Part shown: positions 23,996-42,246 of the stretch, one piece after another
Numbering within the stretch: the stretch's first letter is position 1
How the letters are laid out: every line of letters begins with the position of its first letter
Origin: an uncultured Flavobacteriaceae bacterium
GTDB lineage: Bacteria; Bacteroidota; Bacteroidia; Flavobacteriales; Flavobacteriaceae
Length of the DNA stretch: 64,000 nucleotides
Assembly (NCBI GenBank): GCA_905181835.1
Contig: CAJIZF010000004.1
Span: 310,001-374,000, forward strand
Reading direction: 5' to 3'
Position numbers and translations under genes: made by a program
Notes under the pieces: generated by a model
What the model was told of the DNA's origin: nothing
Seen by the model: the letters and a program-made list of their open reading frames with translations, nothing else
Databases searched by the model: none

Positions 23996-25825
23996 ATGAA
24001 AAATTTGTTCAATTTTAAGCATTTCAAAGGAGATTTATTCGGTGGAATAACTGCGGGTATTGTAGCGTTGCCCCTGGCATTAGCATTTGGTGTTAGTTCA
24101 GGTTTGGGACCAAGTGCAGGTCTATACGGAGCTATATTTATCAGTTTCTTTGCAGCTCTTTTTGGAGGTACTGATACTCAAATATCAGGGCCAACTGCCC
24201 CAATGACTGCAGTAAGTATGGTTGTAATTGCTGGTATTTTGGCAACTTTTGAAGGCGATGTAGAAAAGGCATTGCCGGCAATTTTAACAGTATTTTTATT
24301 AGCGGGATTAATGCAAGTAGGGTTGGGTTTTTTAGGCTTAGGAAAATATATTAAATACATCCCATATCCAGTGGTTTCAGGTTTTATGACTGCAATTGGT
24401 GTGATTATTTTAATAACTCAAATTTTACCTTCTGTAGGATATTACCCTAAAGAAGATCTAAAATTTGTAGAACAATTTAAACCAGCTGCTGAAGAAGTTA
24501 TACTGGAAAACATATTAATAGATGAAGTTGATGAAGGAATTTTAGTTTTAGAAAACTTTGAAGAAACTATTAAAAGAGGAAAGAATGTATCTCAGGAACA
24601 AATAATGACTGAATCTAAAACTTTAGCAGGTAAAGAAGCTTCAGGAGTTTTAGGAACTATTAAGGTATTGCCTTATGCGTTAAACAACATCAATTGGCTA
24701 GAGTTAATCCTAGCCTTAGGGACAATTTTAATTATTTATGGTTTTAAAAGAATCACCAAAGCAGTTCCGAGTACTTTAGTTGCTCTATTTGTAATGAGTG
24801 GTATTGCCATTGGTTTTGGTCTAGATTATCGCCCTATAGAGGAAATTCCTAGTGGATTACCCATTCCAAAATTAGGAATGTTTACCGACTTCAGTTTCGC
24901 TAGTATAACACCTTATATTTTTACAGCTCTAACCTTAGCTTTGTTAGGAGCGATAGACTCATTATTAACATCAGTTGTGGCTGATAATATGACCAAAACC
25001 AAACACAAACCGAATAAAGAGCTTATTGGTCAGGGGATTGGAAATAGTATAGCTGCATTGTTTGGAGGAATTCCAGGTGCTGGTGCAACGATACGTACAG
25101 TTGTAAATATCAATGCAGGAGGTAAAACTAGATTATCTGGTATGATTGCAGGTATTTTATTATTAATCATCTTATTAGCACTGGGTCCTGTAGCCTCTAA
25201 AATTCCTGCTGCAGTACTAGCAGGAATACTTGTAACAGTTGGTATTGGGGTTATGGATTATAAGGGACTAAAAGCAATTCCTTATATGCCAAAACCGGAA
25301 GTCGCAATTATGTTGGTAGTTCTTATACTTTCTTCTGTTTGGAATTTAGTTTATGCCGTTGGAATAGGATTAGTTATCGCTTCATTGATTTTTATGAAAA
25401 TCATTGGAGATATTTCTGCAAAGAGATCGGAAGTTAAATCATTAAAAGAAGAAGCTTGGGACGATGAAGTTGGGATTCCGGAAATTTTACAAGAACAAAT
25501 TTTTATCAAACATATAAAAGGTCCTCTTTTTTTCGGAACTACTAGTGATTTTCAAGCATTAGCTAAACAAATCCCCCAAAAAGCTACTACCGTAATAATA
25601 AGAATGGATCGTATGCCATATATGGATCAGACGGGTTTATACGTGATGGAAGAAATACTTCTTGACCTTGTAAATGCAGGAAAAACAGTATTATTAGTAG
25701 ATATCATTGAACAGCCCAGATATATGATGGAACGTATTGATATTATTCCAGATTTAATAACTAAAGAGCATCTGTTTGAGGACTTTAAAGAATGTTTAAG
25801 TTGGATAAAAGAAAACGTCAAATAA
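23996..25825 (+). CDS. SulP family inorganic anion transporter
   Basis: A 609-residue membrane transporter for sulfate, bicarbonate or related anions. The transport domain shows GGITAGIVALPLALAFGVSSGLGPSAGLYGAI, DTQISGPTAPMT, and LLGAIDSLLTSVVADNMT, followed by a C-terminal STAS domain (about 500-609; FFGTTSDFQ, YMDQTGLYVMEEIL). A strongly acidic, hydrophilic insertion occupies about residues 150-225 between membrane helices, common in marine SulP transporters. Substrate cannot be read from the sequence. Confidence 0.92.
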   Translation: MKNLFNFKHFKGDLFGGITAGIVALPLALAFGVSSGLGPSAGLYGAIFISFFAALFGGTDTQISGPTAPMTAVSMVVIAGILATFEGDVEKALPAILTVFLLAGLMQVGLGFLGLGKYIKYIPYPVVSGFMTAIGVIILITQILPSVGYYPKEDLKFVEQFKPAAEEVILENILIDEVDEGILVLENFEETIKRGKNVSQEQIMTESKTLAGKEASGVLGTIKVLPYALNNINWLELILALGTILIIYGFKRITKAVPSTLVALFVMSGIAIGFGLDYRPIEEIPSGLPIPKLGMFTDFSFASITPYIFTALTLALLGAIDSLLTSVVADNMTKTKHKPNKELIGQGIGNSIAALFGGIPGAGATIRTVVNINAGGKTRLSGMIAGILLLIILLALGPVASKIPAAVLAGILVTVGIGVMDYKGLKAIPYMPKPEVAIMLVVLILSSVWNLVYAVGIGLVIASLIFMKIIGDISAKRSEVKSLKEEAWDDEVGIPEILQEQIFIKHIKGPLFFGTTSDFQALAKQIPQKATTVIIRMDRMPYMDQTGLYVMEEILLDLVNAGKTVLLVDIIEQPRYMMERIDIIPDLITKEHLFEDFKECLSWIKENVK

Positions 25826-27323: not shown

Positions 27324-28392
27324 TCAATTTGGATTTAAAAATGCAGGATTTGTTGTGAATTCAGGTTCTGATAATGAGAGCAAGAAAGCTTTTAAGTCTG
27401 CTTTATCTGAATCAGTTAATTGTGCGCCACCTTCGGCTATATTTTTCATTAAAGGATCGATGGTGTTGGAATAAACCAACCCTTCACTATAATGATTGAT
27501 CACCTCATCTAAAGTCGCAAACCTACCGTCATGCATATAAGGTGCTGTATAAGCTAAGTTTCTTAAAGAGGGAGATTTAAATTTTCCATAATCGAGCGGA
27601 TCCCCAGTAAACCCTCCTAATCCGAGATCTTCAAAAGAAGAGTCTAATCCATTATTATGAAATGCATTATTTGTCCATAAGGGGTTAAATTCATTTCCAT
27701 GACAATGAAAGCAATCTCCTCTATTTTCATCCATAAAAACATTGAAGCCATTTATTTCTTGAGCAGTGACTGCATTATTATCTCCTAATAAATATTGATC
27801 AAACCTTGAATTCCCAGAAATTAAAGTCCTTTCAAACTGAGCAATTGCTCTTGCTACAAATTCTCTTGTTATGATAGGGGTTCCAAAGGCTTGTTCAAAT
27901 AAATCTGGATAATCTGAAGTGGCTTGCAATGTGGCAACTACATTTGGCCAAGTATTATTCATTTCTATGGGATTTTCTATAGGGTCGTCTACTTGATCTT
28001 CTAGGCTAGAGGCACCTCCATCCCAAAGGAATCTATTTTGAAAATTCCAAACTAGGTTAACTATTGGCATGGCATTACGGGTTCCCATTTCCCCGGTAAT
28101 ACCAGTACTAAAACGATTGGGGTCAGTAAACGAATTTTCTGCTAAATGACAACTAGCGCAAGCTTGGGTACCGTCGTTAGACAACAAGGGCTCATAAAAT
28201 AATTTTCTACCTAAAGCGATTCCTTCTAATGTTTGAGGATTGTTGGTTGGAACCGAAGGAGGTAGAAGTAGGGAATTAAAAAGAGCAGGTATTTCTAAAT
28301 TTACTGGTGTTGGCTACATAATTAGTGCTGTCGTCCGAACTAGAACAAGACAGAAAAAAACATGCTATCAGTATAATTGAAAAATACCTCAT
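27324..28392 (-). CDS. Di-heme cytochrome c peroxidase / MauG-MbnH-like, frameshifted near the N-terminus
   Basis: A periplasmic or outer-membrane-anchored di-heme enzyme. The start at 28392 gives a lipoprotein signal (FFLSC-SSSDD); at about 28312 one extra base breaks the frame, after which TPVNLEIPALFN continues. Heme motifs are CASCH near corrected residue 75 and CFHCH near residue 217, with MHDGRFATLDEVINHY towards the C-terminus. Uncorrected, only 27324-28187 is readable from an internal ATG. The family includes peroxidases that reduce H2O2 and MauG/MbnH enzymes that oxidise Trp in partner proteins. The partner MbnP gene is 13 bases upstream on the same strand, which favours an MbnH-like role. 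Confidence 0.85.
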
Positions 28393-28405: not shown

Positions 28406-29173
28406 TTAATCTCCAAGATAAACCGAAAATACGGATTGACCGTTTTCGTTCATTCTTTTTTGAGCAGTATAGTTGCCCATTAAACCGGTGTTAAATTCAT
28501 TTAAATCCCAAGTGTTTGGATTTTTAAACCACTCTGCTAAATTCATTTTTACGTCGATAACAGTATTGCTATTGATAGATAAATTTTCAGTAGTAACGGT
28601 GATAAAGTTTTGTTCAAATACACCATCACTTACTTTGGCAGTTCCATTATGATAATTAAAAACAGGATCGTCTCCAATACCAGGGTTTGCATAGGTGCCA
28701 TCAAATTGCATAAAGTGGTAACCGCCACCTAGCATTGCAGGCCAATTCCAACTTGCACTATTTAGATCTTCGTAAGCTCCGTCCATATTATCTTCTTCAT
28801 TAAATCCATACACAAAACTAATTTTTGTATAAGTTCCTGGCGGTACAACAATATTAGTTGCATAATTAAAGGTATTGTTATCTGAGAGATCAACTAGATT
28901 GTAATCGTTGGTTCCTAAAATTGATATTTCATCTCCTGTGCTATTGGTCAATATTATTTTTGAAATTAAATAACGAAGTCTTGTAATTTTTAAGACCTCC
29001 CCGCTTTCGTTTGTAAACTCTGTAATTCCGATGTCGTCAGAACTTACGTTTTCACCATCCCAATTGTGAGAATGAGAAACTGAAATCAGAAATTGTGGCG
29101 CGTTGTTGTCATCATCAGAGTCACAAGCCAAAAAAACAATTAATAGCGTTAGGAGAAAGGCAATTTTTTTCAT
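28406..29173 (-). CDS. MbnP family lipoprotein (copper-associated)
   Basis: 255 residues with lipoprotein signal (LIVFLAC) and an aspartate-rich linker. The mature domain has the MbnP pattern: ISVSHSHNWDGENV, ITRLRYLISKIILTN, ISFVYGFNEEDN and the hallmark SWNWPAMLGGGYHFMQFDG (near residue 145). MbnP in methanotrophs is a periplasmic partner of the di-heme MbnH enzyme, which oxidises an MbnP Trp to kynurenine and has been linked to copper handling. Here it immediately precedes a di-heme peroxidase gene. Copper binding in this species is an inference. Confidence 0.87.
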   Translation of the reverse strand: MKKIAFLLTLLIVFLACDSDDDNNAPQFLISVSHSHNWDGENVSSDDIGITEFTNESGEVLKITRLRYLISKIILTNSTGDEISILGTNDYNLVDLSDNNTFNYATNIVVPPGTYTKISFVYGFNEEDNMDGAYEDLNSASWNWPAMLGGGYHFMQFDGTYANPGIGDDPVFNYHNGTAKVSDGVFEQNFITVTTENLSINSNTVIDVKMNLAEWFKNPNTWDLNEFNTGLMGNYTAQKRMNENGQSVFSVYLGD

Positions 29174-29267: not shown

Positions 29268-30647
29268 TTATCTCATTTTAAAGATTAAGATATCTTTATC
29301 ACCCTTATTAAGTGGAATGTCAAAATCATTACTTAAGGTACTTCCTACAAATACAATTTCATTATTTGAGGTTCCCGTTACATTGTTTCCAAAATCAATA
29401 TCTGAGCCACCAATATTGGTTTCATATTCTAGAGCGCCGTTTTCATTAACAATAAGTAACCAGGCATCGTTTGCTCCATAATTATTACTAGCATCTCCAC
29501 CAGTACTTCTTGAACTTCCTGCAATTGCAAATGATCCATTACCCAGATTCTTGACACCTCTGGAGGTATCAAATTCAGCTCCACCAAACGATTTTTCCCA
29601 AAGTATTGATCCATTAGAAGCATTAATTTTAACAATCCAAATATCGCCACCACCTTTTGGGTTGGATACATCTCCACCAAGAGATCTTGATTCTCCGGAT
29701 AGTAAGTAATTTCCATCGTTAGCCCTGGCAATTGAGAATGCTCTATCAGTTTCAAGACCTCCATAGGATTGCTCCCAAACTTTCTCTCCAGTTGCACTCA
29801 ATTTTATCACCCAAAAATCGTCTGCACCTATTGCATTAGAAATATCAAAGTCAGGACTATCAGAAACACCGATCAATAAAAACCCACCATCATCAGTTTC
29901 AATAACGTCTTTGTTTAAATCTGCTTGTGTCCCACCAAAATAGCGACGCCAAATTTTATTTCCGTTGGCATCCATTTTGATCCCCCAAAAGTCCCCCAAA
30001 CTGTGTTGACCGGCTCTTAAATTTTGATCGCCATGTATGATATCATTTCCTTCCCCATTACTACCACCTTCACCTACTTGTAAAGTGCCGGAAGCAAAGT
30101 ATCCACCGTCACTTGTTGGGATCACTTTGTAAGCTTGATCTTGGCCAATAAATCCAAATGATTTTTCCCATTGGATTTCCCCTTGACTATCTACTTTTAC
30201 AATCCAATAGTCTTGAAAGCCTGCATTTTCAGAAACATCTCCATCAAAACTTGAAGTATAACCGGAGATGATGTAGCCTCCGTCGTTGGTTTTGGATAAG
30301 CCTGTTGCCTGATCGTTTTGACTACCTCCATAGGTTTTGTCCCAGATTTTGTCTCCGTCTGGGTTTAGTTTTAATAACCAATAGTCCTGGTCTGGATTAA
30401 TTTTACCTGTAATATCTCCATCGGTACTATTAGTGAATCCCAACACGACATATCCACCATCATCGGCTTCTACGATATCGATTGCATCGTCTTCGTTAGT
30501 GCCTCCAAAAGTTTTGACCCAAACTAATTCTCCTTCAAAGACAGGGTCTCCATGGATTACGGAACTATCATCATCACTAGTACAAGCAATAAGAATGTAT
30601 ATAGATAAGAATACTGATAGGTATTTTCTTCTTTTAAAAAAATCCAT
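29268..30647 (-). CDS. Lipoprotein with seven-fold repeats, probable beta-propeller
   Basis: A 459-residue exported lipoprotein (signal ends IYILIACTSDDD). It consists of about seven repeats of roughly 55 residues, each with GG-(4-5 residues)-D-A, then DGGYx-(L/I)xGxSxSxDGD, then D-W-(L/V/I)-K, and GxxxWxxxFGG. The seven count and the tryptophans fit a seven-bladed propeller. It shares the local strand with the MbnP and LVIVD genes. No catalytic residues can be named. Not recognised beyond this family of repeated Bacteroidota proteins. Confidence 0.75.
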   Translation of the reverse strand: MDFFKRRKYLSVFLSIYILIACTSDDDSSVIHGDPVFEGELVWVKTFGGTNEDDAIDIVEADDGGYVVLGFTNSTDGDITGKINPDQDYWLLKLNPDGDKIWDKTYGGSQNDQATGLSKTNDGGYIISGYTSSFDGDVSENAGFQDYWIVKVDSQGEIQWEKSFGFIGQDQAYKVIPTSDGGYFASGTLQVGEGGSNGEGNDIIHGDQNLRAGQHSLGDFWGIKMDANGNKIWRRYFGGTQADLNKDVIETDDGGFLLIGVSDSPDFDISNAIGADDFWVIKLSATGEKVWEQSYGGLETDRAFSIARANDGNYLLSGESRSLGGDVSNPKGGGDIWIVKINASNGSILWEKSFGGAEFDTSRGVKNLGNGSFAIAGSSRSTGGDASNNYGANDAWLLIVNENGALEYETNIGGSDIDFGNNVTGTSNNEIVFVGSTLSNDFDIPLNKGDKDILIFKMR

Positions 30648-30703: not shown

Positions 30704-32115
30704 TTACTTTACAATCAGTCTTTTTGTGGTTAAGCTATTAATTTTTACTAAGTAGATTCCAACATTTAAGCTGCTGATATCAATATTTTTTGTTAGTAAA
30801 TTCTCGCTGTCAATACTTATAACTCTTTGCCCCAATATGTTAAATACCTCAATTTTTGAAATTGGATTGCTGTTGGATTGAATCCTTAAATTATTTTTAG
30901 CTGGGTTGGGTATTAGGTTAAAATTATTAGATTCAAAGTCAGGATTATTTAACCCACTTTCTCTAACTAAAGTAAACCCATTAGTTCCAGAAATAACAAT
31001 ATTCTGGCTTTCAAAAAAAGGATAGACATTCCAAGAGCCATCATAATTAGCATTATTATTTTGAGGGTAAGTATCAAAATAAATATCTGCTGTCATTTCT
31101 TGATTTTCAATATTACTAATATCTACTACGCGCAATCCAGAAGAATAGTTTGAAAGGTAATATCGATCACCAATTACATATCCGTTGTGATCTACTGAGC
31201 TAGTTTCACCAAAATACTCCATGTGAAATTGAATATTGTCTAAATCGGACACATCAAAAACAATAGTACGGGTATTAAACCCAAAATCAAACTCATCAGC
31301 CTCATCGCCAAGAAGCATATATTTACGATCATCGGTTAACCAATTTTGATGTGTGTAACCAGAACTAGAGTAAGGTAGTGAAGCTATTTGAATAGGATTT
31401 GCTTTGTCTGTTACATCAACTATCTCAATGTGATCTTCATTAGAACCAAAGAATATTTCTTTTCCAGTATAATCGCTATCTGGCCCATCATAAATAATTA
31501 CTTGAGCATCGTGAGTATAGCCACCTGCTGAATATCCTCCTTCTAAAAATGGATTAAGTGGGTCTTGTATATTAATCATATGTGGTCCACCTCCAAAGGT
31601 ATTATCTCCAACACTATAGGCATATCCAGATTCTTCATTAATTACTATATTATGAGAACTTCCAAAACCAGGATAGTGTGCATCTTCAGTAAATGTTTCA
31701 GGCGGAGATGCAACAGATCTTAATCGTGTTAAATCAAATACTTGCATTCCATGACCATTAGCTTCACTTACAATAAATGCATGATTCTGATATACTTTTA
31801 TGTCTCTCCATATTATAGATGAAGAATGAGTTGGTAGTTTCCCTAAATATACTGGATTTATTGGATCTGAGATATCAATAAAGGCAGTCCCATTTGTCAA
31901 GACCTACCAAGGCATATTCGGCTACCATCTTCAGGATCTGTCCAACCCCAAGAGTCACTTGCACCATTTGCATTCATTTCATCTAGTGAAATATGAGATT
32001 GTAAATCAAAACCATTACAAGGGTAGTTAAGTGCAAAACCATTTTCACAGGGAGTTTGTCCAAAATTAAAAAATGGGGTAAGTGTTGCGAATAGAAATAA
32101 GTATATTTTTTTCAT
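30704..32115 (-). CDS. LVIVD / choice-of-anchor B propeller, paralogue 1, two frameshifts
   Basis: A secreted beta-propeller with T9SS tail, about 470 residues corrected. The signal peptide and conserved TPCENG-YPCNG-DLQ and SWGWTDPEDG segments are in one frame (32115 to about 31923). Single extra bases near 31923 and near 31903 move the frame, after which NGTAFIDISDPINPVYLGKLPTH continues to a T9SS type A tail (NLIPNPAKNNLRIQSN, ending in RLIVK). Blade-equivalent His occur in PTHS, SHNIVI, YTHDAQ, YTHQNW and DHNGY. TACATTTG (32134-32141 reversed) and a 14-base motif (32227-32240) lie upstream. Function of the family is unknown. Confidence 0.8.
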
Positions 32116-32226
32116 AGGTTATTTATTAAGTTACAAATGTAATTATTTAATGTAGTTATGTATAAAATTTAACAGTTATTAAACATTATAACATAAATAC
32201 TATTAATTAAACAACTGTATAGTCGC

Positions 32227-32240
32227 TAAACCCTACTTTT
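32227..32240 (-). promoter_or_regulatory. Shared upstream motif AAAAGTAGGGTTTA (copy 1)
   Basis: Minus-strand AAAAGTAGGGTTTA, identical to that at 36214-36227. It lies 112 bases upstream of paralogue 1 and about 85 bases upstream of its TACATTTG element (32134-32141). A regulator-binding site is an inference from exact sharing and similar placement. Confidence 0.4.
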
Positions 32241-32307
32241 CTTGTAGTTATTTTTATATTACAACATTACTATCTCATATAATATGTTTGAAATTTTGGG
32301 CAGACTA

Positions 32308-33718
32308 TTAAAATTTTACAACTTTTAATGCAAACAGATTGTTTATATTAAGTATATAAATTCCATTTGAAAAACTATTCAAATTTACAGCAACAGTTGA
32401 TTTGGAATTGAACAATTGATCAGTTAGTTTTTTCCCATTTAAATCGTAAATTTTTATATTTAGTATTGGTATTTCACTTGATTGAATGTTCAATATATCA
32501 GTGTTGGAATTTAATGCCACTTCAAAAGACTCAGAAGTTGTATTTATTGTTGATAGTGAAGAGGACTTTACTAAAAAGAAACCTTCTCGATCACTAATAA
32601 CAATATTCCCACTTTCAAAGTATGGATACGTACTCCAAATTCCCTCATAACCTGCAAAATCATTTAAAGGATGACTATCAAAATAACCAAGTTGTGTCAT
32701 GGTACCGTTTTCAATTTCAGAAATGTCAATAACTCTCAATCCAGCAGCGTTGTTAGCAAGATAAAAAACATCTTCTTTTATGTAACCGTTGTGGTCAGTT
32801 GCAAGGGTAGGCCCTGTATAATCAAATGAATGGCTTGGGTTATCTAGATCAGAGATGTCTAAAATGATTGTTTTTGTATTAAAACCAAAGTCTATTTCAT
32901 CAGCTTCATCTCCTAAAATATAATATTTAAAATCGTCGGTTATCCATCCCTGGTGGGTATATGAAAAATTGGCGTATGATAGGTCTGCAATATGCTGAGG
33001 GTTGTCTTTATCCGTTACATCTACAATTACCACACGATCTTCATTACTACCTACATAAATTTCTTTTCCGATATAGTCGGTATCGGGGCCATTATAATTT
33101 TTTATATGCGCATCGTGAGTATATCCATCAGTAGAATATCCGCCGGCTGCAGTTGGGTTTAAGGGATCTGAAATATCAATGAAATGGGCACCACCAGCAT
33201 AGGTATTATCCCCCAAACTATAGGCAAAACCAGTTTCCTCATTAATCGCAATATTATGTGAAGCTCCAAATCCATCGTAATGAGCATCTTCTGTGAAATT
33301 TTCGGGCGGATTGGGTACATTTCTTAGTCTTGTTAAGTCAAAAACTTGCATGCCATGGTTACTAGCCTCACTTACAATAAAAGCATGATTTTGATACACC
33401 TTTATATCTCTCCAGATACTTTCGCCTGTGTGGGTAGGTAAGTTTTCCTAAATAAATTGGGTTAATGGGATCTGATATATCAATAAAAGCAGTTCCGTTT
33501 TTTAAGCCCATAATAGCGTATTCGTTTCCATCATCAGGATCGGTCCACCCCCAAGAATCATTTCCTCTTATGCCATTCATTTCTTCTAACGAAATAAAAG
33601 ATTGTAAATCGTAGCCATCACATGGGTAATCTCCAGCCATTCCGTTTTCACATGGAATTTGTGCAGCGAGATTTATTGAAAATAATACTGTAAAAAAAAA
33701 AGGAATTAAAAGTTTCAT
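32308..33718 (-). CDS. LVIVD / choice-of-anchor B propeller, paralogue 2, one frameshift
   Basis: Starts at the ATG at 33718 with a signal peptide (cleaved near LAAQIPCENG). At about 33445 one extra base (in YLGK-LPTHTGESIWRDIKV) splits the frame; 33718-33368 and 33399-32308 read as two pieces. Corrected length about 470 residues. The conserved Cys pair, DSWGWTDPDDG, THTGE, SHNIAI, YTHDAH, YTHQGW and DHNGY motifs are all present, followed by a T9SS tail ending in LKVVKF. It begins 3 bases past the end of paralogue 3, so the two are probably co-transcribed. Confidence 0.8.
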
Positions 33719-33721
33719 TAT

Positions 33722-36116
33722 TTAAATTTTTATCAATTTTTTGGTGACTTCATTATTAATGGTCATGAAATAGATTCCATTTGAAAAATTCGAAATATCA
33801 AGTGTTTTTGTTTCTGAATTTATAGTATTAATATCAAGAATTTGCTTTCCATTGATGTCAAACACACTAATAGAGGTTAATAAATCAGTTTTTGAATTTA
33901 CAGTCACCATATTTGACGAGGGATTTGGATAGATGCTCAATCCTTTATTTAATTCATTATCGTTCAATCCAAGTACAAGTACTTCTAGTTCAAATGAGCA
34001 CATATTTTCATTTCCTGAGCTGTCTGTTGTTATAAATGTAATGGTATAACTTCCCATGCCAAGAATAGTTCCCGCGGCTGGATCTTGTTCAATTGTCAAA
34101 TTATCCGTACAGTTGTCGGTAGCCGTAACTTCATTATTAGCTACGTAATCAGGTAAGATTACGGTGCCATCAGGACCCGCTTCTATAAGTTGATCATCAG
34201 GACAGGTAATCATAGGGGCTAAATTATCCTCAACAGTTATTATTGCTACACAAGTATCAATATTTTCAGAAGGATCAGTTACTGTTAAAGTGACTTCATT
34301 TTCCCCAATATTTGTACAGTTAAAAGTGATTAGTGTCGATACTTACCGAATAAGAACCACTATTATCACTAGGAACCTCCATCTATATTTTCTGCAGAAA
34401 TAGTTGCTTCTCCATTTTCGTCTAAAATAACCGTTAGATTCTGACAAACTGCCACAGGCGCTTCATCATCAAAAGTATCGATCACGGTGATCTCAATAAT
34501 GACACTAGCCATATTTTCTGAATCATCTATCCCTTCCAAAACAGCATCAAAAGTTCCGACACTTGTAAATGTATTTGGAGTTAACGACAGAGCTGCTATG
34601 GAACAATTATCAAAACTGCCATTATCGACCTCGCTAGTGGTTACGGTTACCGAAGTATTTCCTTCCAGATCAACTGTAATATTTTGACCCGTCATAGAGG
34701 GTGGAATAGTGTCTTCAATGGTAATTACTGCCTCACAAGAATCTGAGTTTCCTGCTGCATCAAAGACCGTTAATGTCACGTTATTATCACCGATATTATC
34801 GCAGGTGAAGCTACTTATATTTAATTCAAGCGAAGTGATTCCTATGTCATCGGTAGAGCCTCCGTCTACAGAAGCAGCAGTAACGGTTTGCACGCCATTT
34901 TCATCTAGACCTAAAGTTATATTTTGACAAACTGCGGTGAGTTTATAGTATCTATTATACTTGATTTAACCAGAAAAAAACCACCCCCTGAATAATTAGA
35001 AATTACAATATTACCACTTTCAAAGTAAGGATATACATTCCAAGCTCCTGAAAAATTTGCAGAATTGTTGGAGGGAAAGGTGTCAAAATAACCAAGCTCA
35101 CTTATGTTTTGGTTTTCTAGATCACTAATATCAAATACTCGCATTCCTGCAGTATAATTGGCTAAATAATATTTATTGTTTTTGGTATATCCGTTATGAT
35201 CTATCGCGGATGTTGTTCCAAAATAATCAAATTCAAATTGAGGATTATCAAGATCAGAGAAATCAAAAACAATGGTTTTTGTGTTGAATCCAAAGTTTTG
35301 CTCATCCAATTCGTCACCGAGGATAAAGTAGTTTAAATCTTCCGACAACCACCCTTGATGAGTGTAAGAGTCATTGCTATAAGTTGCATTGGCAATTAAT
35401 ACGGGATTCGACTTATCAGTTACATCTACAATTGTAACAAAACTTTCGTTGGACCCAATATATATTTCTCTTCCAGTGTAATCTGTATCAGGGCCATTAT
35501 AGGTGATAACTTGCGCATCGTGGGTGTAACCACTACCGGCATAACCCCCTTCTCCAACTGGATTTAAAGGGTCTTGAATGTTTATAAAATGTGCACCTCC
35601 ACTATAATCCGCTCCAACTCCATAAGCATATCCAGTTTCTTCGTTGATAACGATATTATGTGCGTCTCCAAAGCCACCGTAATGTGCATCTTCTGTAAAA
35701 GTTTCAGGAGGGTTAGCAACGTCTCTTAAACGAGTTAAATCAAACACTTGCATTCCATGTCCTCCTGCTTCACTTACAACAAAAGCATAGTTGTTATAAA
35801 CCTTAACATCTCTCCAAGTTGTTGAAGAAGTATGTGTTGGTAATTTTCCAAGATAAATAGGGTTAATAGGATCTGAAATATCAATAAAAACAGTTCCATT
35901 GTTAAGACCCATCAAGGCATACTCTTTACCATCTTGGGGGTCGGTCCAACCCCAAGAATCATTTCCGCTAGAAGCATTAAATGTTGAAAATGGGATAAAA
36001 GATTGTAAGTCATAACCGTTACAGGGATAGGGTCCCGCCATACCGTTATCACATGGTGTTTGTGCATAATTTACAAGGCTATACACAAAAAATACAAAGA
36101 GCATTATTTTTTTCAT
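33722..36116 (-). CDS. LVIVD / choice-of-anchor B propeller with HYR-like domains, paralogue 3, three frameshifts
   Basis: The longest of the four paralogues, about 798 residues corrected. The propeller part (36116 to about 34930) has all family motifs and His segments. One missing base near 34930 hides the continuation AVCQNITLGLDENGVQTVTAASVDGGSTDD, an HYR/Ig-like repeat series. Extra bases near 34372 (IDGGS-SDNSGSYSVSID) and 34318 (HF-NCTNIGENEV) break the remainder. It ends with a T9SS tail (SIYPNPSSNMVTVNSKTDL). I chose the ATG at 36116 because an upstream ATG at 36134 would precede the expected transcription start and adds no signal-peptide quality. Confidence 0.8.
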
Positions 36117-36135
36117 AAAATTAAGTTTAATCATA

Positions 36136-36168
36136 TAAAGATATTAATTATGAATTGTTAGTTAACAA
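36136..36168 (-). promoter_or_regulatory. Candidate promoter of paralogue 3 and 2
   Basis: On the minus strand TTG (36166-36168) is followed after 22 bases by TATCTTTA (36136-36143), one mismatch from TAnnTTTG. It is 20 bases before the ATG at 36116. Confidence 0.35.
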
Positions 36169-36213
36169 TTAATTTTTTTTAATAGTTTTAGTATAAGACA
36201 ATTTAATTATCAA

Positions 36214-36227
36214 TAAACCCTACTTTT
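36214..36227 (-). promoter_or_regulatory. Shared upstream motif AAAAGTAGGGTTTA (copy 3)
   Basis: The same 14 bases as at 32227-32240, on the minus strand, 98 bases upstream of paralogue 3 and about 46 bases upstream of its -33 element, a usual place for an activator site. Confidence 0.4.
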
Positions 36228-36297
36228 TAAACAATTAATTTAATATCAATCAAATAATTCTTTTCCATCAAAAATATAATAGAAATTGAGAAGTATT

Positions 36298-37725
36298 TTA
36301 AAACTTTACAACTTTCGAGGTAAATTTAGTATTGATTTTTAAAATATATATTCCACTTGATAAGTCTGCAACATTCAAATCAATTGTTGCTACAGAGTTG
36401 TATTGATTAGAAATTACCAACTTGCCATTTAAATCATAAACATCAATTGTTTTGATTTGAGTTTCTATAGCGCTAATCTTAACATTACTAGAACTAGGAT
36501 TCGGATGGATATTAAAATTAGAAATAGTATTATCTCCCATTCCTAGTGAAGAAGATTTTACTAAATAGAAACCAGGCACATAGTTTGGATCACTGTAGAC
36601 TAAGCTAGAGATAATAATATTACCACTTTCAAAATAGGGGTATACATTCCAAGCTCCATCATAACCTGCGGAGTTTCCATAAATAAAAACATCAAAATAT
36701 CCTGTTTCGGTCATATTCCCGTTTGCAATATCAGAAATATCAACTACTCGCATACCGGCTTTATAGTTTGCTAGGTAAAATTTATCGCCCTTCACGTAGC
36801 CATTGTGATCTGTTGCAGAAGTTGGCCCAGTGTATTCAAATGCTAGCTCTGGATTATCTAAATCTGTAAAATCAAAAATAATATTCCTAGTATCAAAACC
36901 AAAATCTAACTCATCGATTTCGTCTCCCATAATAAAGTAAGTCAAATCTTCAGTAAACCAACCTTGATGAGTATAAGACGTGTTGGAATATAATACGTTG
37001 GATATTAATTGTGGATTTGATTTGTCAGTAACATCAACAATAGTTACAAAATCTTCGTTACTTCCAATGTAAATTTCCTTTCCTGTATGATCCGAATCGG
37101 GACCGTCGTAAACAACTACTTGTGCATCATGAGTATATCCACTACCACTATATCCTCCTTCACCTATCGGATTCAATGGGTCTTGGATATTAACAAAATG
37201 TGCACCTCCACTAAAGTCTGCACCGACACCGTAAGCATAACCTGTTTCTTCGTTGATAACGATATTATGTGCACCTCCAAAGCCACCGTAATGCGCATCT
37301 TCCGTGAATGTCTCAGGAGGGTTAGCAACATCTCTTAATCTAGTTAAGTCAAATACTTGTATTCCATGTCCGCCTGCTTCACTAACTACAAATGCGTAAT
37401 TATTATAGACTTTTACATCTCTCCACAAACTTGAAGTTGTGTGTGTAGGTAATTTTCCAAGATATGTTGGATTTACTGGATCTGAAATATCGAGGAATGC
37501 GGTTCCATTATCTAAACCAACTAACGCATACTCAGTTCCATCTTCAGGATCTGTCCATCCCCATGAGTCGTTTGCGTTGCTCGCATCAAAATCAGTACAA
37601 GGAATAAAAACCTGTAAGTCATAACCATTACAAGGGTATTGGCCTGCCAATCCGTTTTCGCAAGGTGTTTGCGAGTTTAACGTCGTCATACATAATATTA
37701 AAACTGGTAATAATAACTTTTTCAT
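36298..37725 (-). CDS. LVIVD / choice-of-anchor B propeller, paralogue 4 (intact)
   Basis: 475 residues with no break, so it serves as the model for the family. Signal peptide (about 1-18), conserved Cys22 and Cys32, SWGWTDPEDG at 54-63, then a propeller from about 65 to 395. His residues fall at 95 (PTHT), 153 (AHN), 199 (THD), 253 (THQ) and 307 (DHN), always just before a blade's first strand and spaced 46-58 residues apart; further conserved His are at 120, 145 and 176. The T9SS type A tail runs from about 405 (FNIHPNPSSSNVKIS) to KVVKF. It is exported and probably cell-surface bound. Activity is unknown. Confidence 0.88.
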   Translation of the reverse strand: MKKLLLPVLILCMTTLNSQTPCENGLAGQYPCNGYDLQVFIPCTDFDASNANDSWGWTDPEDGTEYALVGLDNGTAFLDISDPVNPTYLGKLPTHTTSSLWRDVKVYNNYAFVVSEAGGHGIQVFDLTRLRDVANPPETFTEDAHYGGFGGAHNIVINEETGYAYGVGADFSGGAHFVNIQDPLNPIGEGGYSGSGYTHDAQVVVYDGPDSDHTGKEIYIGSNEDFVTIVDVTDKSNPQLISNVLYSNTSYTHQGWFTEDLTYFIMGDEIDELDFGFDTRNIIFDFTDLDNPELAFEYTGPTSATDHNGYVKGDKFYLANYKAGMRVVDISDIANGNMTETGYFDVFIYGNSAGYDGAWNVYPYFESGNIIISSLVYSDPNYVPGFYLVKSSSLGMGDNTISNFNIHPNPSSSNVKISAIETQIKTIDVYDLNGKLVISNQYNSVATIDLNVADLSSGIYILKINTKFTSKVVKF

Positions 37726-38975: not shown

Positions 38976-41900
38976 ATGCCTGAAAATAAAGGAAACTTTT
39001 TTGTTCACCGACCTATTGTAGCAATTGTCATTGCAATTGTTATTGTGATTGTAGGAACTGTAATGCTCGTTGGATTACCTATCGAGCAATATCCAAACCT
39101 AACACCTCCAATTGTCCAAGTAAGAGCTTCCTACACTGGTGCAAATGCCACAAGTGTTGAGGAATCTGTTGCAACTCCTTTAGAGCAACAAATTAACGGG
39201 GTAGATAACATGATTTATATGAAATCTACTAATGCAAATGACGGAACCATGTCTATTGATATCTCTTTTGATGTAGGAACTGATCCAGATATGAATACGG
39301 TATTGGCGCAAAACAAAGTTTCTGCTGCATCTGCTAAATTACCTGCATCTGTAACAAAATTTGGAGTTACAACACAAAAATCACTCCCAAATATCCTAAT
39401 GTTAGTTACATTAACTTCAGATGGTAGGTACGATCAAGATTTTTTAGGAAATTATGCCTTGATTAACATTAAGGATAAGCTAGCTAGAACCAAGGGTATT
39501 GGAAGGGTAGATGTCCTTGGCGCTTCAGATTATTCCATGCGAATTTGGGTGAAGCCTGATCGACTGTCACAGTTAGGATTAACGGTCCCGGAAATAATTA
39601 ATGCCATTAACGAGCAAAATGTAATTGTTCCTGGAGGTAAATTTGGTGCAGAGCCAGCCCCGATAGGTACAGAGTTCACCTATACTGTTCGATTGCCAGA
39701 GCGATTTAATTCGGAAGAAGCTTTTGGTAATATTATTATAAGAACCCAAGAAGACGGGTCACAAACAAAACTTAAAGATGTAGCATCCATAAATCTTGGT
39801 GTGGAAAGTTATAATATGAAAGCCCGCTTAAATAGCAAAACATCTGCAATTATTGCTTTATATCAAGCGCCTGGATCTAATGCAACCGAATTAGCTCAGA
39901 CCATTCGTCAAGAAATGAATTTATTAGCTACAGAATTTCCTGAAAGTATAGCATACGATATTTCACTCGATTCAACTACCGCAATTGATGCAGGAATTAG
40001 AGATATTGTAGTTACATTAATTGTGGCATTGATATTGGTAGTTTTTGTAGTTTTTATTTTTATTCAAGATTGGAGAGCAACACTAATACCTACCTTGGCG
40101 ATACCAGTTTCCCTAATTGGAGCATTTATATTTTTTCCGGCTTTAGGCTTCACTATTAACGTATTGTCTTTACTTGGTTTAGTGTTAGCTATTGGAATTG
40201 TAGTTGATGATGCAATAGTCGTGGTAGAAGCAGTTCAAGTAAATATTGCAAAAGGAATGTCTACAAAAGAAGCTACTCTTGATGCAATGCGAAAGGTAAC
40301 AGCGCCAGTAATCGCAACGACATTGGTTTTAGTAGCTGTTTTTATACCGGTAGCAGGAATGGCGGGTATTACAGGTTTGTTATACCAACAATTTGCAATT
40401 ACTATTGTAGTATCTGTATTGGTTTCATCTGTGAACGCTTTAACGTTAAGCCCTGCATTGTGTTCTTTACTTTTAAAAGAACCAAAGGTATACAAAGGAC
40501 CTCTTGGCTGGGTTTTTGCAAAATTTAATAAAGGGATGGATAAAACCACTGACTCGTATATGAGTTTTACTAATATCGTTGGCAGAAAATTAAAACGCTC
40601 TGTTATTTTTATACTCTTGATGACTTTCGGAGCAGGAATATTTGGAAGTTTGGTTCCAGGTGGATTTATTCCTGAAGAAGATATGGGATATTTTTATGTT
40701 AATGTTCAATTACCTAATGCAGCATCCATTCAAAGATCTGATATGGTAACCAAAGATATTGAACAAATTTTAATGCAAATTCCAGAGGTTGATTTTGTTA
40801 CTACTGCTACAGGATTCAGTATTTTATCTGGAGCTATGGTCTCTAATACAGGATTTTTATGGGTCACCCTAAAAGATTGGTCTGAAAGAGATCGTACTGC
40901 TGAAGAAATTATTGGAGATGTAAATAAGCGCTTGGCAATGACAATAAAAGAAGCTCAGGTATTTGCTTTTGGTCCACCGGCTATACCAGGTCTAGGAAAT
41001 GGTTCAGGATACAGTATCATGCTTCAAGATAAGGGAGGTAATACACCAGAATACCTTTCTCAGAACGCAATGAAATTTATCCAAGCAGCCAATGCACGCC
41101 CTGAAATTGGAAGAGCAAGTACTACTTTTCAAGCGACAGTGCCTCAGCGTTTTTTGAATATAGATAAGGAAAAGGCATTAAAATTAGGAATTAGATTAAA
41201 TGATCTTTACACTACGATTGGAGCCTTCATGGGCGGAGCCTATGTTAACGATTTTACTCGATTTGGGCGTTTGTACAAAACATACATACAAGCCGAGCCT
41301 GAATATCGAGTTGATGAAACAGGAATCAATAAGTTTTTTATAAAAAACAATAAAGGAAATATGGTTCCTTTGTCAACGGTTGCAAATGTTCAAAATATTT
41401 CGGGACCGGATTACACTACACGATTTAATTTATATAGATCTGTTGAGGTAACAGGAAGTCCCTCAGAAGGATATACCTCTGATGATGCTCGAAACGCTCT
41501 TAAAGAAGTAGCCGCTCAAACATTACCACAGGATATGGGTTATAGCTGGAACGCGATGTCTTTTCAAGAAGAAAAAGCTTCGGGATCTTTAGGAATTATA
41601 TTAACGTTTTCGTTGGTATTTGTCTTCTTAATACTGGCAGCTCAATATGAAAGTTGGTCATTACCTTTTTCTATATTAATGGGAACACCATTTGCAATTT
41701 TTGGTGCCTTTATTAGCCCTCTGGCTCGGAAGATTAATAAGTCCAACATTCGAGAATAATATTTTTGCTCAAGTGTCCTTTGTTATGCTGATTGGTATGG
41801 CAGCAAAAAACGCCATATTAATTGTTGAATTTGCAAATGATGAGTTTCAAAAAGGATTAAGCCTTTTCGATGCCGCTATGGCAGCAGCTAAATCAAGATT

Positions 41901-42246
41901 TAGACCAATATTAATGACTGCATTTTCTTTTATTCTTGGAGTTTTTCCTTTGGTAATCGCTTCAGGTTCTGGAGCTGAAGCAAGAAAAGTAATGGGAATG
42001 GCTTTATTAGGAGGGATGGGATTAGCAACTTTATTAGGCGTTTTTTTATATCCTATGCTGTTTGTGTTTATTGGAAAAATTGCTGGCTATGAGAAAAAAA
42101 GAGATGCAAATGAAATTATTGAATCTGAAAATCCAAAACAAATTAATGATCTCAGTTTATACATATCTATTATTATTAACATTAATTGTTTAGCACAACC
42201 ATTTGAATTGGGCCTAATTATTTACAACCTAAAGAAATTACTTTGA
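38976..42246 (+). CDS. RND multidrug efflux pump, AcrB/HAE1-type, frameshifted near 41723
   Basis: A proton-driven inner-membrane exporter. It carries the N-terminal FVHRPIVAIVIAIVIVIVG helix, the proton-relay pair in GIVVDDAIVVVEAV near residue 411, and porter-domain segments such as GPPAIPGLGNGSGYSIML. Near 41723 one extra base ends the first frame at 41759; the other frame continues GRLISPTFENNIFAQVSFVMLIGMAAKNAILIVEFAND through the last helices. That frame stays open to 42246, across the start of the next gene, so the true stop is uncertain (42185 or earlier). Corrected length is near 1,060-1,090 residues, normal for the family. Substrates cannot be predicted. Confidence 0.9.

Follow-up and report, generated by a model that had tools for sequence, protein, structure and literature searches.

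A possible metal centre related to that of the Sphingobium phosphotriesterase in the T9SS-secreted TIGR04312 propellers of a flavobacterium

Organophosphates are broken down by the phosphotriesterase, or haloalkylphosphorus hydrolase, of Sphingobium sp. TCM1 (Sb-PTE; PDB 5hrm and 5ioj). A reference title cited in PMC11656708 credits this enzyme with a binuclear metal centre of a familiar kind, set in a seven-bladed propeller, and PMC13202482, in its accessible part, names triphenyl phosphate as its best-known substrate. A second seven-bladed group, SBP56 or methanethiol oxidase (SELENBP1, MtoX), has histidine and acidic residues in its cavity according to the accessible part of PMC10362175, and in the mtoX operon, according to the accessible part of PMC5739008, SBP56 is accompanied by a copper chaperone and mauG. 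The present analysis concerns a window of 64,000 nucleotides from an uncultured Flavobacteriaceae bacterium (contig CAJIZF010000004.1, positions 310,001 to 374,000), whose minus strand carries, at 30704-37725, four tandem genes for seven-bladed propellers of the TIGR04312 (choice-of-anchor B) family. The original prediction, made from this DNA alone, had recognised these four genes, and all of them do match TIGR04312 far above its curated NCBIfam cut-off of 100 bits (387.6 to 555.3 bits; E-values 6.5e-116 to 7e-167), a model whose name carries no function. We propose, with a probability of about 0.68, that these four propellers are surface metalloenzymes secreted by the type IX secretion system (T9SS), with a centre homologous to that of Sb-PTE and with ester hydrolysis as their likely reaction.

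The starting point was the suggestion that five histidines (residues 95, 153, 199, 253 and 307), one at the same place in each of five blades, form a ring around the channel, with three more (120, 145 and 176) also kept. The numbering is correct: the intact copy, a frame of 475 residues at 36298-37725 (-), has histidines at 95, 120, 145, 153, 176, 199, 213, 253, 307 and 407. Conservation was followed in two sets of propellers. The close set comprises 197 aligned sequences with 48-100% identity to the window protein (198 of 210 open reading frames (ORFs) were kept for spanning more than 330 residues, leaving 196 after deduplication, to which the window protein was added), and paralogues as well as the copies of the window itself are among its rows. 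For the distant set, three partial ORFs were dropped from 35; the remaining 32 come from genomes picked mostly for their weaker matches. H120, H153, H199, H253 and H307 are each present in 197/197 of the close set. In the distant set, H153, H253 and H307 are found in 32/32, as is E269, a residue that the original prediction had missed, while H199, D200, N308 and D/E103 each reach 31/32; the tryptophans Trp55 and Trp101 (28/32 each) and Trp359 (31/32) are also well kept. H120 drops to only 3/32 there and may be a subfamily feature. The variability of H95 (116/197 close, 0/32 distant, with a gap in 25/32 distant rows), H145 (147/197 and 3/32) and H176 (146/197 and 14/32) in both sets rules them out of the conserved set. 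By conservation, the suggested ring would keep four of its five histidines, and of the three additional ones H120 holds among close relatives only. All four window copies retain the motifs (A/S)HN, THD, THQ, GDE and DHN. In a further alignment (A2) of 34 rows, made of 26 of the 32 distant members and eight closer rows, 4/9 histidines are invariant, vs 9/369 other residues (Fisher p 1e-4); the six distant rows outside A2, among them L138 with its Gln at position 199, are partial or doubtful.

The structure predicted for the intact copy is a confident one (pLDDT 96.3, pTM 0.93; model numbering is the residue number minus 19). The innermost strands of blades 3-6 begin at or beside H153, H199, H253 and H307 (model H134, H180, H234 and H288), each of which is either the last residue before its strand or the second residue in it (strands 135-139, 181-186, 233-238 and 287-293). 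The place in blade 2 equivalent to theirs is occupied not by H95 but by W101 (model W82, just before strand 83-88); W359 (model W340) is third in strand 338-343, and W55 (model W36) lies inside 32-39. From these strand positions the blade series would read W55, W101, H153, H199, H253, H307 and W359; the assignment is least certain for blade 1. Glu269 (model E250) comes right behind the second strand of blade 5 (244-249). Strand A of a propeller blade begins on the face where strand B ends, so H153, H199, H253, E269 and H307 are predicted to be together at one end of the channel. A simple seven-fold geometry, with an assumed limit on the reach from histidine to metal, indicates that for four consecutive strand-A starts to share one metal the inner radius could be no more than about 7 angstroms, a limit that two metals would relax.

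The same residues reappear in Sb-PTE. When the profile of the 34 divergent rows of A2 was run against all PDB sequences, only Sb-PTE was significant (5hrm 1.4e-8, 5ioj 2.8e-8), the next match having an E-value of 0.09; the first HMMER piece of this match was one blade out of register and the C-terminal piece was in the co-linear register. Foldseek returned 1564 rows, 978 of them with E up to 0.001, and among the best 50, which were inspected, the 5hrm chains rank first and second by E-value (3e-10 and 5.6e-10; TMq 0.67 and 0.66). Homology to 5hrm is also evident with hhalign, for which we made use of two plasmid-borne relatives: L143 from Sphingobium xenophagum, near-identical to Sb-PTE and with the same numbering as 5ioj, and L144 from Novosphingobium, which has 45% identity to L143. 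We take the metal ligands of Sb-PTE to be E201, H258, H317, H389, E407 and H475; L143 has each of these residues at the number given, and L144 retains all six. The family profile aligned with three such phosphotriesterase-like sequences at Prob 99.6 and E 9e-23 in the co-linear register, favoured by eleven orders of magnitude over the next register (2e-11), and H153 fell exactly on H258 and E269 on E407. Against single sequences, the global E-values were 2.5e-14 for L143, 3e-14 for L144, 1e-34 for a Halorussus and 1e-19 for a Rhizobium relative. The pairwise alignment with L143 sets H153 on H258, H253 on H389, E269 on E407 and H307 on H475; in that with L144, H199 meets the equivalent of H317; and the Halorussus and Rhizobium proteins align at all five ligand positions. 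By comparison, SBP56, YncE and the window's own SBBP protein gave no match to the family profile (E-values of 0.39-0.75 in global alignment and, respectively, of 0.009, 0.022 and 0.62 in local alignment).

To complement these searches, 38 chosen sequences were aligned jointly in two MAFFT modes. A plasmid search with L144 had produced 17 records, of which eight were taken up and four entered the alignment; a Variovorax and a Paraburkholderia relative were left out, and SBP56 and YncE, themselves weak L144 matches (5e-4 and 2e-3), served as the controls mentioned above. In both modes H153, H199, H253, E269 and H307 each occupy a single column, and in the second mode these five and G324 are the sole invariant columns. 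The five corresponding Sb-PTE ligand positions, as we take them to be, are accordingly aligned and invariant in 38/38 chosen rows, even though the four outsider sequences have only 20-22% identity to the window protein. In the reverse direction, L144 as a query finds matches in 15 of the 395 genomes sampled from the phylum (best E 2.5e-6), and among the matches listed 9/17 places overlap listed TIGR04312 places (G293, G332, G085, G325, G344, G242, G167, G183 and G392). NCBIfam assigns L143 and L144 to no family, and in Pfam they score 16.2 and 18.6 bits with LVIVD, below the cut-off of 20.2. Three of the plasmid-borne proteins deserve a description of their own: that of Halorussus (L165:1351-2586) is an archaeal LVIVD propeller annotated as hypothetical; that of Rhizobium tropici (L164:685-2121), like the former a weak match of L144, is an LVIVD propeller in a record without annotation; and that of Paraburkholderia megapolitana (L162:634-2286), a distant Sb-PTE relative with 27% identity to L144, lies beside a DUF305 gene.

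Sb-PTE and the window family, at about 20% identity as gauged through L143, are therefore alike in having seven co-linear blades and an aligned set of four His and one Glu. Four blade-equivalent invariant histidines, a glutamate and the homology to a metal-dependent propeller enzyme together support the idea of a metal centre, sited at one channel end. Because so close a precedent exists, the centre is probably not undescribed, contrary to what had been suggested. The analogies that had been offered, carotenoid oxygenases and nitrous oxide reductase, are also propellers with several histidines at one end of the channel; neither appears in Foldseek's best 50 of 1564 or among the PDB profile hits up to E 1. 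After these corrections the initial observation proves largely right.

How might such a centre operate? In our proposal the four proteins would be secreted by the type IX system and anchored to the surface, and His153, His199, His253 and His307, one per blade at the inner-strand starts of blades 3-6, with Glu269 after strand B of blade 5 as a fifth ligand, would bind one or two divalent ions where the channel opens, in a centre homologous to the binuclear one of the Sphingobium TCM1 enzyme. The remainder of the pocket would be lined by Trp55, Trp101 and Trp359 (blades 1, 2 and 7) together with Arg102, Asp/Glu103, Asp200 and Asn308. Most likely, two divalent ions would activate a water molecule for the extracellular hydrolysis of an ester, perhaps a phosphoester. 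The fold, the conservation and the homology are computed, while we infer the metal, its nuclearity and the reaction, and with unequal assurance: that a metal is bound seems very probable, that there are two ions rather than one is a somewhat better than even proposition, and hydrolysis is favoured over redox chemistry by only a little.

Several observations weigh against this proposal. The link to Sb-PTE is significant only with the divergent profile A2; that of the close relatives (A1) reaches no significance in the PDB (best 5hrm, E 0.029), and in Foldseek other propellers score close behind 5hrm. The ligand list taken here for Sb-PTE is not given in the accessible parts of PMC11277490, PMC11656708 and PMC13202482. 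Its sixth ligand, E201, has no exact counterpart in the window family, Asp/Glu103 being in the same blade and a different column. In the three-sequence hhalign, H199, H253 and H307 come to lie in the right blade, several columns off; the pairwise runs place H199 on H323 of L143 and H253 on H326 of L144, four residues away from the H389 equivalent, such that H317 and the H389 equivalent are each missed by 4-6 residues in one run. The Variovorax relative keeps 4/5 ligand positions, the Paraburkholderia one is out of register with the family profile, and the distant member L138 (1/32) has replaced His199 by Gln. In the reverse search, among the matches listed, 8/17 places overlap none of the TIGR04312 places listed, and genome G280 has no TIGR04312 match. 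Apart from this, Sb-PTE differs in having a Met aligned with Trp359 and a longer chain between its blades, and no T9SS domain was found in Sb-PTE-like proteins with NCBIfam and Pfam.

Among the alternatives, the one that survives best, though we regard it as unlikely, is that the metal is structural or that catalysis has been lost, the proteins being cell-surface adhesins or binders; it overlaps the other readings, and the odds given to them are hence not exclusive. It draws on the T9SS sorting domains, on the FG-GAP, carboxypeptidase-regulatory or MAM domains of some family members and on the presence of one to six propeller frames per locus. Nevertheless, a full ligand set that stays invariant when identity is down to about 20% is what one would more typically expect of a catalytic centre, and Sb-PTE is itself an enzyme. 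With regard to the accessory domains, FG-GAP repeats stand before the propeller in members L024, L030 and L036; behind it there is a carboxypeptidase-regulatory domain in L128, L131 and L135 and a MAM domain in L122.

A copper-binding redox centre like that of methanethiol oxidase, for which MbnP would deliver the copper and the MbnH-like enzyme would make a Trp-derived cofactor, strikes us as less likely again. MbnH converts a tryptophan of MbnP into a copper-binding kynurenine. A 2013 paper (PMC3621798, in its accessible part) treats MbnP and MbnH as partners that are widely conserved and had no known role. The neighbourhood sample speaks for the copper reading: of 74 loci, 48 extend over more than 12.5 kb, and these, mostly flavobacterial by record title and some from one genome, contain SBBP in 42 cases, MbnP in 39 and the MbnH-like gene in 35, all 35 showing the one-strand order propeller(s), SBBP, MbnP, MbnH-like; some of the partner losses are simply loci that end early. 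The parallel between the flavobacterial cluster and the mtoX operon, in which SBP56 has a MauG-like neighbour (PMC5739008, accessible part), is notable. The conserved Trp55, Trp101 and Trp359 would suit a Trp-derived cofactor, and PF05694, the SBP56 family, gives weak hits below its cut-off with one of 83 A1 members (0.0055), L165 (5.9e-5), L164 (2e-4) and L144 (0.0041). Yet membership of SBP56 had to be rejected, as there is no profile match (hhalign against L166: E 0.71 in global mode, E 0.009 in local mode across 37 columns; 2ece E 0.29); the SBP56 ligand motifs are HH and HxxH, in contrast to the single histidine per blade here; and the residue set matches that of Sb-PTE. Moreover, in 6/48 long loci the propeller is accompanied by none of the three partners. 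In the 395 genomes, the 120 with a strong propeller and the 195 with an MbnH-like gene coincide in 54, vs 59 expected (p 0.27, for presence within a genome, not adjacency), and 66/120 strong-propeller genomes have no MbnH-like gene. A family-wide link between propeller and MbnH was consequently discarded, co-occurrence by genome presence not being above chance, and for the same reason the neighbourhood does not fix the metal as copper. Within the window's own family, Flavobacteriaceae, an MbnH-like gene is found no more than 5 kb from a propeller in at least four of the nine other genomes that have one (G088, G103, G312 and G367), and G053 shows no MbnH-like match among the matches listed. The proximity to MbnP and a di-heme enzyme that had been pointed out is a recurrent flavobacterial gene order, and copper is a lineage-level hint rather than an established family trait. 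The pump genes that flank the window's cluster on its opposite side recur in only 3/48 long loci, and a nearby gene (23996-25825), presumably for a SulP-type transporter, in 0/48.

Doubtful, too, is a purely structural function for the histidines, without metal. WD40 blades carry a structural histidine network, with a GH dipeptide before strand A, and the same place in the blade as well as the many WD40 propellers among Foldseek's best 50 of 1564 accord with such a role; what argues against it is that the invariant histidines are confined to blades 3-6, that a conserved Glu shares their end of the channel and that the same five positions are taken to be ligands in Sb-PTE. Least probable of all is a composite in which the Flavobacteriaceae propeller would be a copper-loaded surface oxidase, its Sb-PTE-type site recruited for redox, with MbnP supplying the copper and the MbnH-like enzyme oxidising Trp55/101/359 to a cofactor beside the metal.

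The comparison as a whole suggests that the TIGR04312 proteins, instead of being passive components of the surface, are enzymes that depend on a metal. They are common, 120/395 sampled genomes of the phylum having a match above the cut-off, and in the open-licence papers searched (most subscription papers being outside this search) no paper names 'TIGR04312' or 'choice-of-anchor B'; the accessible parts of two papers on LVIVD repeats (PMC2447325 and PMC8078820) make no mention of a metal. As far as our searches show, what is new here is the putative assignment of a large surface-protein family, with a distinct Trp-bearing half-ring and a recurrent gene cluster, to the Sb-PTE precedent. If the tie to Sb-PTE is real, many surface proteins would become testable metalloenzymes, and Sb-PTE, a degrader of man-made flame retardants, would gain a wide natural family, whose rhizobial and haloarchaeal relatives are places to seek the ancestral substrate. 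The gene order with MbnP and the MbnH-like enzyme in flavobacteria provides a second handle on function.

The features of the window locus are collected in Table 1. The genome search match of the MbnH-like gene spans 27330-28253, and this di-heme gene scores 232.8 bits with TIGR04039, below the NCBIfam cut-off of 362.85.

Table 1. Genes of the propeller cluster and codons of the residues discussed (positions in the window)
Feature	Position	Strand	Remarks
Intact copy	36298..37725	-	TIGR04312 propeller, residues 21-375; T9SS type A sorting domain, 406-473
Copy 2, propeller	34917..36134	-	TIGR04312 match
HYR domain and T9SS sorting domain	33722..34213	-	Separate frame downstream of copy 2
Copy 3, propeller and T9SS sorting domain	32308..33718	-	Two overlapping frames, 33368-33718 and 32308-33399
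Copy 4, propeller and T9SS sorting domain	30704..32112	-	Two frames, 31909-32112 and 30704-31900
SBBP-type beta-propeller protein	29268..30647	-	NF047494 match below cut-off; next in recurrent gene order
MbnP	28406..29173	-	After SBBP in recurrent gene order
MbnH-like di-heme enzyme	27324..28187	-	CCP_MauG in Pfam; last in recurrent gene order
His153 codon	37267..37269	-	Blade 3, start of strand A (predicted); aligns with Sb-PTE H258; 38/38 in joint alignment
His199 codon, then Asp200	37129..37131	-	Blade 4 (predicted); aligns with Sb-PTE H317; 38/38 in joint alignment
His253 codon	36967..36969	-	Blade 5 (predicted); aligns with Sb-PTE H389; 38/38 in joint alignment
Glu269 codon	36919..36921	-	After strand B of blade 5 (predicted); aligns with Sb-PTE E407; 38/38 in joint alignment
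His307 codon, then Asn308	36805..36807	-	Blade 6 (predicted); aligns with Sb-PTE H475; 38/38 in joint alignment
His95 codon	37441..37443	-	Outside the conserved set

Finally, the reading frames are broken in or behind propeller copies 2-4 (30704-36134) and also in the AcrB gene (38976-42246). A related genome, L041, with 91.7% DNA identity across 30704-37725, has four propellers, all in whole frames, and its AcrB gene, split in the window, is a single frame. Given these whole frames, the 106 gap bases in the alignment of the window with L041 and the fact that AcrB is split as well, the breaks are probably assembly or sequencing indels.

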